Shown here: positions 9,251-25,733 of the stretch, piece after piece | How the letters are laid out: each line of letters opens with the position of its first letter | Position numbering within the stretch: the stretch's first letter is position 1 | IMG/VR virus record: IMGVR_UViG_3300022856_000015 | Coordinates: 1-35,805 of that record | Source: a virus | Strand: one strand, 5' to 3' | DNA length: 35,805 nt | The notes under the pieces: model-generated | Told to the model about the DNA's origin: nothing | The model's database searches: none | The model's input: the letters and a program-made list of their open reading frames with translations, nothing else | Program-made: the position numbers and the translations under genes

Positions 9251-9796
9251 ATGGAAAATATAAATAATTCAAGTGATGTAGATTCAAGTCGTGTTGTATA
9301 TTCAAGTCGTAATGTATATTCAAGTCGTAATGTAGATTCAAGTCGTAATGTAGATTCAAGTTGTAATGTATATTCAAGTCGTAATGTATATTCAAGTCGT
9401 AATGTAGATTCAAGTCGTAATGTAGATTCAAGTCGTATCGTATATTCAAGTCGTAATGTAGATTCAAGTCGTAATGTAATCTTCTGCTGTGATATAAAAT
9501 GCAAAGAATACTATGCGTTTAATAAGCAAGTTACAACAGATAGGTTATATGAAATTATAAACCTTTGGAACAAACTAAAAGGAGATTTCAAACTAGAACT
9601 AGAAAATAACGAATGGACAGACGAATGGAAAAAATTACCTAACTCTGTATGGCAGGAACTAGCTAAACTACCAGAATGGGATATAAATGTTGTAGAGAAA
9701 ATTATAGGGTTTAAACCTAATATGGAGATTTCTAAAGAAATGACAGTAGCAGAAATATCAGAGAAGTTAGGATATGAAGTAAAAGTAATAAAATAA
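9251..9796 (+). CDS. Hexapeptide-repeat (SSRNV-Y/D) protein
   Basis: Residues about 6-77 are a near-perfect repeat of a six-residue unit, Y/D-S-S-R-N-V, ending in IFCCDIKCKEYYAFNK; residues about 90-181 form a non-repeated domain with several Trp (NNEWTDEWKKLP). The alternating pattern suggests a narrow beta-solenoid with stacked Arg, Asn and Val. Proteins with decayed versions of this repeat followed by a C/FNK segment occur in many phages, with unknown function. It is directly followed by a pentapeptide-repeat gene, so two repeat-built proteins are co-expressed. Confidence 0.75.
   Translation: MENINNSSDVDSSRVVYSSRNVYSSRNVDSSRNVDSSCNVYSSRNVYSSRNVDSSRNVDSSRIVYSSRNVDSSRNVIFCCDIKCKEYYAFNKQVTTDRLYEIINLWNKLKGDFKLELENNEWTDEWKKLPNSVWQELAKLPEWDINVVEKIIGFKPNMEISKEMTVAEISEKLGYEVKVIK
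9268..9480 (+). repeat. 18-bp coding minisatellite
   Basis: About 12 copies of an 18-bp unit (TTCAAGTCGTAATGTAGA, with G or T near its end) start at 9268 and then every 18 bp from 9283 to 9463. The first spacing is 15 bp. Because 18 is a multiple of three, copy number can change without shifting the frame. Confidence 0.95.
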
Positions 9797-9798
9797 TT

Positions 9799-10401
9799 AT
9801 GAAATACACATTAAAAAACAAAGAAATAGAATTAACAGATGATGAAGTAAAAGCAATTGTAAAACAAAACAGTAAACCTGTAGAAGAAAAGAAAGTGGGG
9901 TTAGAAATTAAAAACAGATTTACGGGAAATGTAATATTTACATCAACTAAAACAACATGGGGAGAAGCTGTAGAGGAAGCAAACCTTCGTGAAGCAGACC
10001 TTAGTGAAGCAAACCTTCGTGGAGCAAACCTTCGTGGAGCAAACCTTCGTGAAGCAGACCTTAGTGAAGCAAACCTTCGTGGAGCAAACCTTCGTGGAGC
10101 AAACCTTCGTGAAGCAAACCTTCGTGAAGCAGACCTTAGTGAAGCAAACCTTCGTGAAGCAGACCTTCGTGAAGCAAACCTTCGTGAAGCAGACCTTAGT
10201 GAAGCAAACCTTCGTGAAGCAGACCTTCGTGGAGCAAACCTTCGTGAAGCAGACCTTAGTGAAGCAAACCTTCGTGAAGCAAACCTTCGTGAAGCAGAGT
10301 TAATGAATGCTAAATTCTATGGAAAAGGAGGAACATCAAAACTAACAAAAGAGCAGTTACCAGATTTCTTAAACGCACTTGGTTTTCAAGTGGAGAACTA
10401 A
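9799..10401 (+). CDS. Pentapeptide-repeat protein
   Basis: After a 58-residue N-terminal region, residues about 60-165 are canonical pentapeptide repeats (A-D/N-L-R/S-E/G), such as NLREADLSEA. This family folds into a right-handed square beta-helix; some members (Qnr, MfpA) mimic DNA and bind gyrase. The C terminus (KLTKEQLPDFLNALGF) is a short helix. Target unknown. The central Leu is invariant in the units. Start ATG 9799 lies 2 nt after the previous stop. Confidence 0.9.
   Translation: MKYTLKNKEIELTDDEVKAIVKQNSKPVEEKKVGLEIKNRFTGNVIFTSTKTTWGEAVEEANLREADLSEANLRGANLRGANLREADLSEANLRGANLRGANLREANLREADLSEANLREADLREANLREADLSEANLREADLRGANLREADLSEANLREANLREAELMNAKFYGKGGTSKLTKEQLPDFLNALGFQVEN
9976..10295 (+). 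repeat. 15-bp coding minisatellite
   Basis: About 21 units of GAAGCAAACCTTCGT and close variants (GGAGCA..., GAAGCAGACCTTAGT). Codon choice is almost identical between units, showing recent expansion. All reading frames stay open through it, so the apparent overlapping ORFs are artefacts. Confidence 0.95.
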
Positions 10402-15294: not shown

Positions 15295-15693
15295 ATGAAA
15301 AGGAGTCCTATAAAAAGAGTTGGTAAGTCTGCAACATCTAAAATGCAGAAGAAGTGCGATAGATTACTTTCTCCAATTATTACAGAAATGCACCCAGTGT
15401 GTCTCTTAAATGGGTTGGAGGATAATCTTAATTGCTCTTATAAATCTCAAGTCGCCCATCACCATGTGCATAAGTCAAAGAGTTTAGCTTTAAGATATGA
15501 CCTAGAAAACCTAATACCATTATGCACACATTGTCATTTAATGTTACACCATAATGAAAGCTATTGGGCTTCCAAGATTGTTGAAATAAAAGGACTCGAC
15601 TGGTTTAGAGAAATAGAAATTAAAAAGCGTGGAACAGTTAAAGCAGATATACATTGGTATAACATGCAGTTTAAAACATTAAACAATAAATAA
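15295..15693 (+). CDS. HNH endonuclease-like protein (NinG-type)
   Basis: Residues 36-90 hold the zinc/HNH layout: C36, C47, VAHHHVHKSKSLALR (54-68) and LENLIPLCTHCHLMLH (70-85). The basic N terminus (MKRSPIKRVGK) resembles NinG-like recombination nucleases. In this operon it may process recombination intermediates; a homing role is less likely because it lies in a recombination module. Confidence 0.75.
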   Translation: MKRSPIKRVGKSATSKMQKKCDRLLSPIITEMHPVCLLNGLEDNLNCSYKSQVAHHHVHKSKSLALRYDLENLIPLCTHCHLMLHHNESYWASKIVEIKGLDWFREIEIKKRGTVKADIHWYNMQFKTLNNK

Positions 15694-16855: not shown

Positions 16856-17134
16856 ATGGATTACGAATTAGCAGAGGAATTACACAAAACAGGGTTTAAA
16901 CCAAAAAATGTAACAATAGCAGGGTCAATACTTGCTATACAAACAACTTCACTATCAGAACTAATAGATGCTTGTGGAAAAAACTTTCCAAAGTTATCTA
17001 ATGAGTATGGTGAATGGGAATGTGGTGAAATGGAATATTGTTGTGGAGAACATGGTTACAGTTGGGAAACAATAACATTAGGCAAAACTCCCGAAGAAGC
17101 AGTAGCAAAACTATGGTTAGTATTGAATAAATAG
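16856..17134 (+). CDS. Small conserved phage protein, paralogue B (92 aa)
   Basis: Paralogue of the 15695 gene: MDYELAEELHKTGF, LSELIDACGKNF and TPEEAVAKLWLVLN match it. The stop TAG ends on the first base of the tRNA-Thr gene, so the gene and the tRNA share that base. Function unknown. Confidence 0.72.
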   Translation: MDYELAEELHKTGFKPKNVTIAGSILAIQTTSLSELIDACGKNFPKLSNEYGEWECGEMEYCCGEHGYSWETITLGKTPEEAVAKLWLVLNK

Positions 17135-17206
17135 CTGGCATAGCTCAGATGGTAGAGCAATTCACTTGTAATGAATAGGTCAGGGGTTCGAATCCTCTTG
17201 TCAGCT
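17134..17206 (+). tRNA. tRNA-Thr (anticodon UGU)
   Basis: A complete cloverleaf: acceptor GCTGGCA/TGTCAGC (one G-U), D-arm GCTC/GAGC with AGATGGTA loop, anticodon arm ATTCA/TGAAT with loop CTTGTAA, five-base variable region and T-arm AGGGG/CCTCT with TTCGAAT loop. Anticodon TGT at 17167-17169 reads ACA, a codon used very heavily in these genes. No CCA is encoded. TerS promoter follows directly. Confidence 0.93.
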
Positions 17207-17208
17207 CA

Positions 17209-21615: not shown

Positions 21616-21624
21616 TGGTATAAT
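21616..21624 (+). promoter_or_regulatory. TGGTATAAT promoter
   Basis: TATAAT at 21619 and ATG 21633, 8 nt later. Confidence 0.62.
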
Positions 21625-21632
21625 ATAAACAT

Positions 21633-22265
21633 ATGAATAAATATAAAAACTTAACGGCAACATCGCAAGTAAAAGCAATAACAGGAGTATTAAAGGGGAT
21701 GTATGTAAATTCTACATCAACAGGAACTATTGAGTTCAATGATGGATTTACTGCAACTGAGGCAGGAATTAAAGCCACAGGAACATTCACAGTAGCGGCA
21801 GCAATCGTAGACGACGACACAGTATCTATTGGAGGACAAACTTATACATTTAAGACAACTCTAACAGCATCAACAACAGCAAACGAAGTTCTCATTGGTG
21901 TATCAGATGCAACAGCATTAGACAATATTAAGAGTGCTATCAATAAATCAGCAGGTGGAGGAACTACTTATGGTTCTGAAACAGTAGCTAACGCTTTTGT
22001 AGCAGGAACTACAAATACGGATACTACTCAAGTGGTAGAAGCATTAGCAGTGGGAACTTCATACAATGAAGTCGCAACATTGTCAAGTGATGCAGCTAAC
22101 CTATGGGGAGACCCCACACTTACAGGTGGACTTAATGTATCACCACTAATTAATAACACAATAACACCAGCTATCGGTTATCATGATTTAGGAGATGTAT
22201 CGTTTTCAAATGGGTTACTTGCAACTATTGCAAACACATTAGACGTTACAATACACTACGAATAG
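21633..22265 (+). CDS. Putative virion protein with a repeated-type phage beta domain (210 aa)
   Basis: Residues about 60-175 (DDTVSIGGQTYTFKTTLTAS, ANEVLIGVSDATALDNIKSAIN, GGGTTYG, WGDPTLTGG) match a beta domain found in many phage structural proteins, often surface or fibre proteins. The N terminus (LTATSQVKAITGVLKGMYV) is a different short domain. Located between portal and scaffold, it is probably a head or decoration protein. Confidence 0.65.
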   Translation: MNKYKNLTATSQVKAITGVLKGMYVNSTSTGTIEFNDGFTATEAGIKATGTFTVAAAIVDDDTVSIGGQTYTFKTTLTASTTANEVLIGVSDATALDNIKSAINKSAGGGTTYGSETVANAFVAGTTNTDTTQVVEALAVGTSYNEVATLSSDAANLWGDPTLTGGLNVSPLINNTITPAIGYHDLGDVSFSNGLLATIANTLDVTIHYE

Positions 22266-22344: not shown

Positions 22345-22890
22345 ATGAACGAAGAAAACGAAGAATTAAACGAAGATGTAGAAGAAGATATTGACATTGA
22401 ACTTGACGAAGAAGAAGTTGAGGATAAAGCCGAAATCAAAAAACCTACAGAAACGTTAGAAGCAAGACGCTCAAGACTAACTAGACAATTAGAGCAAACT
22501 AACAAAAAGTTAGGCGTAACGGAAGAAAAAGAAGTAAAACAAGAATCAAATAACTTAGGAGAATCTGCATACTTAATTGCTAATGGCATTAAAGAATCAG
22601 ATGAAAAAGATTTAGCTAGGAAACTATCTAAAGAGACAGGAAAAGACTTAGAAGCACTTTTGGACAGCACTTACTTTCAATTAGAACTTAAAACTTTAAG
22701 AGAAACTAAAACAACTGAACAAGCTAATCCAGAAGGTAGTAAACGCTCAAATAATTCAACATCAGATTCAGTAGAATATTGGATAGCAAAAGGAGAATTA
22801 CCACCAGCATCAGAACAGCAATTAAGACGTGACGTAGTAAACGCACGAATTAAAAAAGATGATTCATCAGGAACTTTCTACAACTCTTAA
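22345..22890 (+). CDS. Scaffolding protein candidate
   Basis: A highly acidic N terminus (more than half Asp/Glu in residues 1-35) leads into coiled-coil helices (LEARRSRLTRQLEQTNKKLG) and a basic C terminus (EQQLRRDVVNARIKK). This is the classic scaffold layout, and it lies just before the capsid gene. Scaffolds guide capsid assembly and leave before maturation. The start has only a weak -10 (TATAAC) about 45 nt upstream. Confidence 0.7.
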   Translation: MNEENEELNEDVEEDIDIELDEEEVEDKAEIKKPTETLEARRSRLTRQLEQTNKKLGVTEEKEVKQESNNLGESAYLIANGIKESDEKDLARKLSKETGKDLEALLDSTYFQLELKTLRETKTTEQANPEGSKRSNNSTSDSVEYWIAKGELPPASEQQLRRDVVNARIKKDDSSGTFYNS

Positions 22891-22936
22891 GTTAAATTAA
22901 TAAATTAACTAAAGATGACGCCGAAGCTCATTCACA

Positions 22937-22951
22937 ATTAAATATGCTATA
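22937..22951 (+). repeat. Left arm of an inverted repeat flanking the HNH gene
   Basis: AATTAAATATGCTAT here is the exact reverse complement of ATAGCATATTTAATT at 23538-23552. The pair brackets the HNH gene, and the left arm contains part of that gene's TGCTATAAT promoter. Confidence 0.85.
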
Positions 22952-22953
22952 AT
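22945..22953 (+). promoter_or_regulatory. Promoter for HNH gene
   Basis: TGCTATAAT (hexamer at 22948) lies 9 nt before ATG 22963, inside the left arm of the inverted repeat. Confidence 0.6.
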
Positions 22954-22962
22954 GTGGTTAAT

Positions 22963-23541
22963 ATGCCATCAGGAGTTTACCAAAGAACAGAAAAGCACAA
23001 ACTCATAAACAAGGGTAGAACCCATACCAACAGAAAGAAATATTTTAAAGGGAGAAAAGTTACTATCAAAACTTGTGAGTATTGTAAAAAAGATTATGAA
23101 GCAAACTATAAGAATGCTAAAAAATCTAAATTTTGTTCACTATCTTGTTCTGCTAAAAGTAGACCAGAGTTTGTTTATTCTAATCTAGGAAAAACAACAT
23201 CAGAAAAACAAAAACAATCTGCTCGTTCAAGAGTGGGTACAAAACACCCCAGATGGATTAAAAATAGAACTGCCCAGTTAGAAAAGCAAAGGCTAAGGGG
23301 TGGTGGCGAGTGGAAGGATTGGAGAAAAACTATCTTTGAAAGAGATGATTTTACTTGTCAGGAATGTAGAACCATTGGAGGTCGCTTGGAACCTCATCAT
23401 ATTGTTCCATTAAGAAATGATATGAATATAAAGTTTGACATTAATAATGGAATAACTTTGTGTAGAAAATGCCATATGAAAACTTTTTATAAGGAACATT
23501 TATTTGAAGAAAAATACAAAAAGATATTAACCCCAATATAG
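22963..23541 (+). CDS. HNH homing-type endonuclease, inserted before the capsid gene
   Basis: MPSGVYQRTEKHKLINKGRT, a CxxC...CxxxC zinc region (CEYCKKDYE..FCSLSC), a GKTTSEKQKQSARSR segment like NUMOD DNA-binding modules, and an HNH core (FERDDFTCQECRTIGG..EPHHIVPLRND..NNGITLCRKCH). It is a free-standing homing endonuclease candidate. It splits scaffold from capsid, and a perfect 15-bp inverted repeat brackets it. The start at 22963 is preferred to GTG 22954, which lies just after the -10. Confidence 0.85.
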   Translation: MPSGVYQRTEKHKLINKGRTHTNRKKYFKGRKVTIKTCEYCKKDYEANYKNAKKSKFCSLSCSAKSRPEFVYSNLGKTTSEKQKQSARSRVGTKHPRWIKNRTAQLEKQRLRGGGEWKDWRKTIFERDDFTCQECRTIGGRLEPHHIVPLRNDMNIKFDINNGITLCRKCHMKTFYKEHLFEEKYKKILTPI

Positions 23542-23552
23542 CATATTTAATT
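23538..23552 (+). repeat. Right arm of the inverted repeat flanking the HNH gene
   Basis: ATAGCATATTTAATT, reverse complement of 22937-22951. On the minus strand it reads TGCTATATT, a possible antisense promoter toward the HNH gene. It ends 6 bp before the capsid gene's -10. Confidence 0.85.
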
Positions 23553-23558
23553 TGAAGA

Positions 23559-23564
23559 TATAAA
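23559..23564 (+). promoter_or_regulatory. Candidate promoter -10 for major capsid gene
   Basis: TATAAA at 23559 lies 6 nt before ATA 23571, the same spacing as TATAAT to ATG elsewhere. No -35 is evident. Confidence 0.45.
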
Positions 23565-23570
23565 GCAGTC

Positions 23571-24431
23571 ATACTAAACAATATTTCAATCGTACCATCA
23601 GAAGAGTTTGAAACAAAATTACAAGAACGTCTATCTGCACCAGCAGTGTGGAAAGAGGTTTGTAAAGTTTCTTACACAGACACAGGAGTCCTACACAATC
23701 CTTATCTAACAGATTCAACAATAGGAACAGGAACTAGAGGAACAGGTTACACATCTACAGCATCAGCTACAACAGATGATACAGTAACAATCAACACTTA
23801 CAAATATTCAGCACAACATATTGATGAAGCTGACTTAGCTCAAAAGTCATTCAGCGACTTCATGGAAATTGCTGACAATATGGGAACAATGTTGAACGAA
23901 ACTATGGAAACTGCAATGCTTGCAGGACACGCTTCATGGACAAACTTCGACAACGCTTCAATTGGAGGTGCAGCAGGAAACATTACAGTAGCGACTTCAA
24001 ACATCGATGACATCGTTGTAGAAATCAAAACTGCAATCAGAACAGCAGGAGGAGGAGAAATGGCTGACCGAAACGGAATCTTCATCCAATGGAGAGAAGC
24101 TGATTTCGCTAAAGTTGAAAGACTAGCAGCATCACAAGGTTTCAACACAGCAGATAACGTTCTAAACAACGGAATCAAACAAGGTTTCTCATACCTTGGT
24201 GTAGAACATTATTCAACATCAAAGAACGTGTCAGGTCACGTATTTGCTGGAGTAAAGAAAGCATTTCACGTTGGAATTGTTAAATCAACTTACGGAAAAA
24301 TGAAACAAATTGTTAACCCAGTTGTTTCATCAGCTCAAATTTCAGGACTAGGACTAGAATCAAGAATTGATTACAAATTCAACGCTTGGACTAAAATGGC
24401 ACCAATTTTGTATGATGTGCTAGTAGCGTAA
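23571..24431 (+). CDS. Major capsid protein, apparent ATA start
   Basis: Residues about 30-286 have the look of a phage major capsid protein: WKEVCKVSYTDTGVLHNPYL, a conserved TGTRGTGYTS loop, EADLAQKSF then MEIADNMG, and a C-terminal domain ending ILYDVLVA. It follows the scaffold gene. The frame is open from 23556, and the upstream segment LNNISIVPSEEFETKLQERL is a convincing N-arm, but no ATG, GTG or TTG precedes GTG 23646. ATA 23571 gives MLNNISIVPSEEF and lies 6 nt after TATAAA, as in leaderless genes here. Start at GTG 23646 would remove 25 residues. Fold family not certain. Confidence 0.82.
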   Translation: MLNNISIVPSEEFETKLQERLSAPAVWKEVCKVSYTDTGVLHNPYLTDSTIGTGTRGTGYTSTASATTDDTVTINTYKYSAQHIDEADLAQKSFSDFMEIADNMGTMLNETMETAMLAGHASWTNFDNASIGGAAGNITVATSNIDDIVVEIKTAIRTAGGGEMADRNGIFIQWREADFAKVERLAASQGFNTADNVLNNGIKQGFSYLGVEHYSTSKNVSGHVFAGVKKAFHVGIVKSTYGKMKQIVNPVVSSAQISGLGLESRIDYKFNAWTKMAPILYDVLVA

Positions 24432-24937: not shown

Positions 24938-24946
24938 TGGTATAAT
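24938..24946 (+). promoter_or_regulatory. TGGTATAAT promoter
   Basis: TATAAT at 24941 and ATG 24954, 7 nt later. Confidence 0.63.
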
Positions 24947-24953
24947 TAGACAA

Positions 24954-25733
24954 ATGGCAATTCAATTTAACGACATAACAAATTTACGAGGGCTAGTTCA
25001 ACTAGCAGAAGAAGAACTAGGTTACACATCTGGTGCTATTTCAGGTAATGCAACAAGATTAAAGCAATTTACAGCACGAGTAAACAACTCACTTGATACA
25101 TATTTTTCTATTGGAGTTCAGGCTAGCGGGACATGGCAATTAGATAGTAAAAACCACACAGACTACAACATCATTGAAACAGACCTTATAGCACTTCAAA
25201 GAGATTACAATTTTTCAGCAGATGGTAGTGGAAATATGATACTAGATATCTACAAAGTAATGATAAAAGACGAAGCAGGAGTTTATTATGAAATATTCCC
25301 AGTAGACCAAGAAACAGATTCTAACATGCAAGCATTTTGGGATGGTAAGAACACAACAGGACAGCCCATTAGATACGACAAGACAGCAAACGGTATTTTC
25401 TTAGATGTTTTACCTACTTGGAACTGGAGAATTGGAACAGAGGGAGAACAGGGTGTTAAGATTTTTATAAACAGAGAATCAGATTACTTTGTGTCAACAG
25501 ATACAACGAAAACAGCAGGTTATCCATACCATCAAGAATACTTTTATTTAAAGCCTTGTTTAGAAATGGCACGAATAAACAACCTTGACTCTTTTACAAA
25601 ATTAAGAGATGAAGTCTTAAAACTAGAAGGAGATGTAACAACAGGTCGAGTTGGTTCTATTGCTAAAGCATACGGTAATAGAGCAAAAGACGAGCAATCA
25701 GTATTAGAAGCAGTGTCAATAGACAGTAGATAA
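24954..25733 (+). CDS. Putative head-tail adaptor or tail protein (259 aa)
   Basis: The start at 24954 is preferred because it lies 7 nt after TATAAT; an upstream in-frame start would sit in the promoter. It contains an alpha/beta region (DYNIIETDLIALQRDYNFSA) and a C-terminal segment YFYLKPCLEMARINNL. By position, after capsid and decoration genes, it resembles adaptor proteins that join portal to tail in short-tailed phages. No decisive motif. Confidence 0.6.
   Translation: MAIQFNDITNLRGLVQLAEEELGYTSGAISGNATRLKQFTARVNNSLDTYFSIGVQASGTWQLDSKNHTDYNIIETDLIALQRDYNFSADGSGNMILDIYKVMIKDEAGVYYEIFPVDQETDSNMQAFWDGKNTTGQPIRYDKTANGIFLDVLPTWNWRIGTEGEQGVKIFINRESDYFVSTDTTKTAGYPYHQEYFYLKPCLEMARINNLDSFTKLRDEVLKLEGDVTTGRVGSIAKAYGNRAKDEQSVLEAVSIDSR

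Follow-up and report, generated by a model that had tools for sequence, protein, structure and literature searches.

An HNH endonuclease gene inside a putative structured RNA cassette in front of a viral major capsid gene that lacks a standard start codon

Why should an HNH endonuclease gene, bordered by a long inverted repeat, stand directly in front of a major capsid gene that has no standard start codon? This question is raised by a 35.8-kb virus record, IMGVR_UViG_3300022856_000015 (positions 1–35,805, referred to as the window), in which three genes follow one another on the plus strand. The first ORF (22345–22890) gave no family match in the family searches and is called scaffold-like by its position, which is kept 5' of the capsid gene in relatives. 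The second (22963–23541) encodes a 192-aa protein with a Cys4-finger-like region and an HNH domain (Pfam PF01844, 9.6e-7, above the cut-off; PHROG 1271/8446/144), and the third is a capsid ORF matching PHROG 267, major head protein (3.1e-13). A relationship of the HNH protein to IscB of the IS200-IS605 group was rejected, as the NCBIfam IscB score was 28.6 bits against a cut-off of 175 and the protein has just 192 aa. Elsewhere in the window, we recorded a further HNH protein encoded in the early region (15295–15693), a single tRNA-Thr (TGT) directly before the terminase genes (17134–17207), two ORFs containing short tandem repeats (SSRNVYSSRNVD, pentapeptide-like ANLREADLSE) that are open in more than one frame (9251–10401), and TATAAT boxes located 7–8 nt 5' of structural-gene start codons (21620–21633 and 24940–24955), the last of which suggest leaderless mRNAs in the host.

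The perfect inverted repeat around the HNH gene, previously given as 15 bp, is present, its perfect core being 16 nt long (22936–22951 and 23537–23552), and the full repeat consists of 29-nt arms matching at 27 of 29 positions (93%). The left arm (22936–22964) extends into the HNH start codon, while the right arm (23524–23552) contains the final HNH codons with the stop and ends, as was observed before, 6 nt ahead of a capsid −10-like TATAAA (23559–23564). Perfect inverted repeats reached at most 14 nt when the junction was dinucleotide-shuffled 1000 times, and at most 11 nt in 692-nt stretches taken from elsewhere in the window. Both arms are kept in six divergent HNH copies, each of which stands at the corresponding scaffold-capsid junction, and are intact in a mini copy (L106), in which the HNH gene is cut down to ten codons (MPKGIRLENY); in every HNH copy and in L106, 26–27 of the 29 positions pair. 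Searches of viral contigs with the exact gapped arm pattern gave no match; the half-pattern gave at least 119, of which at least five listed contigs (L114, L124, L130, L131, and L137) are HNH loci already in the set, and the remaining ones have probably arisen by chance, the DNA being AT-rich. We judge the repeat to be real, conserved, and functional in appearance.

The manner in which the arms vary points to RNA. Double compensatory changes, in which both partners of a standard pair have changed, occur in six arm columns, and exchanging right arms between loci reduced the mean duplex stability from −33.3 (own) to −24.8 (swapped; p = 0.0016). Among non-complementary arm positions, 14 cells are G-U and five are A-C, a small excess in cells that are not independent, which leans towards RNA and not DNA symmetry. 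In L106, the left-arm TATAAT has become TGTAAT, with the −10 consensus lost and the stem held by G-U.

Moreover, the arms, designated stem P2, and the HNH gene between them are enclosed by a second stem, P1, found by swap-test covariation and pair probabilities. Its strands in the window occupy 22913–22921 and 23565–23574, so that P1 ends about 10 nt 5' of the capsid start. It is preceded by a predicted hairpin, P0 (22890–22910), between the scaffold stop and the cassette, and a hairpin in the P0 position is present in nearly all relatives, with or without the cassette. P1 comprises 5–11 pairs immediately outside GAAGU and UAUAA, which face each other in a recurrent internal loop between P1 and P2. 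According to the junction table and the folds, the first loop strand of the window is a conserved GAAGC (22923–22927; GAAGU in most relatives), and opposite lies GATATAA (23557–23563), which is also capsid −10-like. The P1 sequence itself varies by locus (GGTAGTA/TACTACC, ATGTTGT/ACAACAT, GTTGATAGC/GCTATTGAC, GTGTGTT/AACACAC, and others). In a swap test with 14 loci, the strands of the same locus paired with a mean of −7.4 kcal/mol versus −3.1 kcal/mol for swapped strands, a difference reached in none of 20,000 permutations (p < 5e-5); P1 is weak in L106 and L004, and the loop strand UAUAA is missing from L048 and L093.

Unconstrained folding of the 750–920 nt junctions of six HNH loci gave pair probabilities above 0.99 for P2 and mostly above 0.9 for P1, lower values (0.81–0.87) being limited to three pairs of the window, whose P1 probabilities span 0.81–0.96 (22916–22921 with 23565–23571), and one P1 position being unpaired in L093. 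The folding z-score was −5.25 for the window junction and −6.45 for L106. The collapsed stop-to-start distance at the HNH loci was no better than in shuffles, and since shuffled long sequences collapse too, it was dropped as evidence of coupling. No credible Rfam match was obtained for the junction RNA. From the predicted folds and the covariation, the junction is best read as an RNA structure carrying a homing-endonuclease gene in its loop, with the HNH AUG in the stem.

An alternative is that the arms act as DNA, either as transposon-like terminal inverted repeats or as binding or cleavage half-sites of the HNH protein, with dimer binding or gene conversion between the arms preserving their likeness. 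The near-perfect palindromic ends and the partial conservation of the arm sequence between copies would agree with this, and L010 is readable as an empty site with a shared TTAA. However, P1 lies outside the arms and pairs without a common sequence, the non-complementary arm positions favor G-U over A-C, and target duplication was not clear. A strict scan of 480 kb of relatives, which recovers just three known cassettes, found the cassette core nowhere else, and arm-flanked HNH homologs occur at this junction only. An insertion sequence with terminal inverted repeats was rejected on the single junction and the want of a clear target duplication, and the proposal that the arms are cleavage-site halves found no support, as they look like RNA stem strands nested inside a second covarying stem. 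We regard a DNA role of the arms as rather unlikely.

Capsid searches of IMG/VR yielded 33 and then 58 loci, whereas no capsid relatives were found in GenBank phages or GTDB genomes. The junctions were sorted into classes. Cassette-less loci have one hairpin (P0), followed by an ATG about 33–57 nt after the scaffold stop; in cassette loci, P0 is followed by a second structure; in HNH loci, this second structure has the HNH gene inside. Cassettes without HNH were identified in L010/L022/L023, L013/L014, L032, L004, L008, L017, L071/L089, and L088, of which L032 retains a scar (TTGAATATATAGCATATTCAA); in L061 and L083, a second hairpin is present but the cassette core is not. In one further relative (L029, 5001–5774), the capsid ORF is about 26 internal residues shorter than in all others, through either a deletion or an assembly fault.

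As already noted for the window, the capsid ORF has no ATG, GTG, or TTG at its conserved N-terminus, and none occurs in frame upstream before a stop. The alignment with the ATG of the relatives moves the start from ATA at 23571, assumed in the earlier note, to ATT at 23583, which is most likely the start codon as judged from these sequences (capsid gene: 23583–24431). It had also been proposed that insertion of the HNH gene replaced the original ATG. Relatives without the HNH gene were compared, a check that had been set in advance, and they carry the same kind of flank and non-ATG starts, i.e., ATT in L010/L022/L023, ATC in L032, L017, and L071, and TTG in L013 and L004. Because HNH-less cassettes also start with codons other than ATG, the HNH gene is not the cause of the odd start; replacement by insertion survives in a changed form, for the cassette. 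In a 54-row tree set with scored labels, non-ATG starts were found in 21 of 25 cassette loci versus none of 29 cassette-less loci, although L008 and L088 have the cassette core and yet an ATG. On the capsid tree, there were at least eight changes for the cassette, at least six for the non-ATG start, and at least five for HNH. All informative pairs in an independent-pairs test of cassette versus non-ATG start had the same direction but were too few for significance, and the relation is to be taken as an association based on few independent events. The sequences indicate that the non-ATG start and the cassette travel together.

Comparison of particular pairs points in the same direction. The sequences flanking the junction on either side are about 97% identical between L024 (cassette-less, ATG) and L032 (cassette, ATC), and the L032 cassette, which ends in ATC, occupies the place of AATTATCATG in L024. 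Furthermore, the cassettes of L028 and L071 (both ATC) are more alike than their capsid genes (identity of 0.95 versus 0.79), as are those of L019 and L013 (both TTG; 0.86 versus 0.70), whereas the window and L004 have a capsid identity of 0.90 and a cassette identity of 0.56. Since cassette and capsid identities are at odds and matching cassettes have the same start codon, the cassette and the start codon in it are exchanged together, as one unit.

Two other explanations of the stems were weighed. The duplex might mainly be a processing site, where RNase III would cut the 25–30 bp, free the HNH RNA, and set the 5' end of the capsid mRNA. A long near-perfect duplex between two genes of one operon would suit this, as would its retention in L106, which lacks HNH; however, L010, L071, and L088, being HNH-less cassettes with a short P2 only, still keep P1. 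We consider processing as the main role quite unlikely. The second explanation is a promoter cassette, in which a late capsid promoter (GAAGTTC ... TATAAT) was split by HNH and the stems are by-products. Indeed, GATATAATA or a similar sequence is located 13–17 nt before most cassette starts, and similar −10 boxes are seen by eye before other genes of the window. Nevertheless, a promoter scan of the region gave no excess over shuffles, the covariation of P1 and its exact fit around the motif speak against it, and L048 and L093 lack TATAAT and still have a 9-bp P1; we hold this explanation to be improbable.

The HNH gene shows the patchy occurrence at one site among close relatives that is characteristic of homing genes, as seen from its changes on the capsid tree and from the window compared with L004. 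Clearly divergent copies occupy the same junction in L007, L019, L028, L048, and L093, and the first three encode proteins with 50%, 45%, and 38% identity, respectively, to that of the window. The HNH proteins of L048 and L093 (L087, L093) have a common C-terminal half unlike that of L028, while in the N-terminal half, L048 matches L028 and L093 resembles the window; both may be mosaics of HNH modules assembled at one site. In L003 (4334–5025), a relative with about 96% identity to the window, a TGA stands in frame in the HNH gene where the window has TGG, and both arms are intact; this reflects either gene decay or a sequencing error.

An extended −10 sequence, TATGCTATAAT (22943–22953), lies inside the left arm 9 nt 5' of the HNH ATG (22963), and it is the probable HNH promoter. 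TATGYTATAAT is present 7–9 nt before the ATG in HNH-bearing copies, the TATAAT being kept in five of six (TATACT in L019), and no Shine-Dalgarno sequence was seen for the HNH gene. It is plausible that the left arm serves as the promoter of a near-leaderless HNH mRNA. At the same time, prediction and covariation place the HNH AUG partly inside P2, in agreement with the hiding of the start in segB/mobE-type control.

Taken together, we favor, with moderate confidence, an exchangeable cassette at this junction, built of outer P1, the GAAGU/UAUAA internal loop, and the long arm-built P2, whose loop holds a homing HNH gene; this gene would be silenced on late mRNA, expressed from its own promoter, and spread by creating a resistant allele. 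On the long structural-gene transcript, the arms would pair across the whole HNH gene, looping it out between scaffold and capsid and placing its AUG in the stem, so that little endonuclease would be made from late mRNA. The capsid start would be left beside the hairpin base, sparing scaffold-capsid expression. An mRNA from the putative left-arm promoter would begin close to the AUG, and the masking strand would therefore be absent. At the DNA level, alleles without the cassette would be cleaved by the enzyme close to the capsid ATG and would acquire the cassette, non-ATG start included, during repair, after which they would be resistant. As a counterpoint, the P2 strands are 560–700 nt apart across the HNH gene; pairing between them may be slow, or ribosomes or RNA polymerase may separate them.

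HNH genes are often carried in introns, and the cassette might be a remnant of an earlier interruption of the capsid gene by a group I intron or a ribosome-bypass element. In T4, the bypass insert of gene 60 is associated with a homing endonuclease, from whose cleavage it may give protection (PMC5009743). However, the Rfam search returned no group I core, and a group I intron was rejected accordingly; the cassette sits after the scaffold stop and before the start codon; and its removal rebuilds no ATG in L010 or L032, for which reason splicing to restore an ATG was also dismissed. Such an origin appears very improbable. The favored cassette shares with the T4 mobA/gene 60 insert an HNH homing gene tied to a small structured insert for which protection has been proposed, as it would be here, but it is intergenic, has HNH inside the loop, and does not need bypass. 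Similarly, its HNH gene in a folded-RNA loop recalls the homing genes that group I introns carry in peripheral loops, but it comes without a group I core and without signs of splicing.

The closest likeness is to the hairpin-controlled endonucleases of T4-type phages, i.e., I-TevI, I-TevII, I-TevIII, segB, and Aeh1 mobE, where a stable RNA structure hides the ribosome-binding site on upstream transcripts and mRNA from the gene's own promoter escapes (PMC2988022). Likewise, the structure predicted here would mask the start region, and mRNA from the gene's own putative promoter would escape it. In those genes, the masking structure is found at the gene start, whereas in the present case the start region would pair with the 3' end of its own gene, about 560–700 nt away; moreover, no Shine-Dalgarno sequence is visible here, and another covarying stem surrounds this one, 5' of a capsid gene, in a non-intron cassette. 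In ShiLan, an HNH insertion that is neither intron nor intein lies in frame inside a phage methylase gene, and it is similar in its patchy distribution and in the HNH start and stop being near the insert ends, while a flanking inverted repeat is not mentioned in the available part of that report (PMC11855218). A search of an open-access library found no description of an arrangement like the present one.

It is also conceivable, though we hold it to be doubtful, that P1-GAAGU/UAUAA-P2 represents a new class of mobile structured RNA that places itself over the capsid start codon, supports initiation at AUU, AUC, UUG, or GUG, and has a homing endonuclease gene in its loop while being no intron. 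If the favored reading is true, homing genes would need no intron to reside in essential late operons, as folding would keep them out of the message. The element is compact and covarying, it occurs naturally without HNH and in a mini form, and phages that are 97% identical differ in its presence. Finally, these loci form a natural series in which major capsid genes apparently start with AUU, AUC, UUG, or GUG behind a conserved RNA, through which structure-aided non-AUG starts in phages would become testable.
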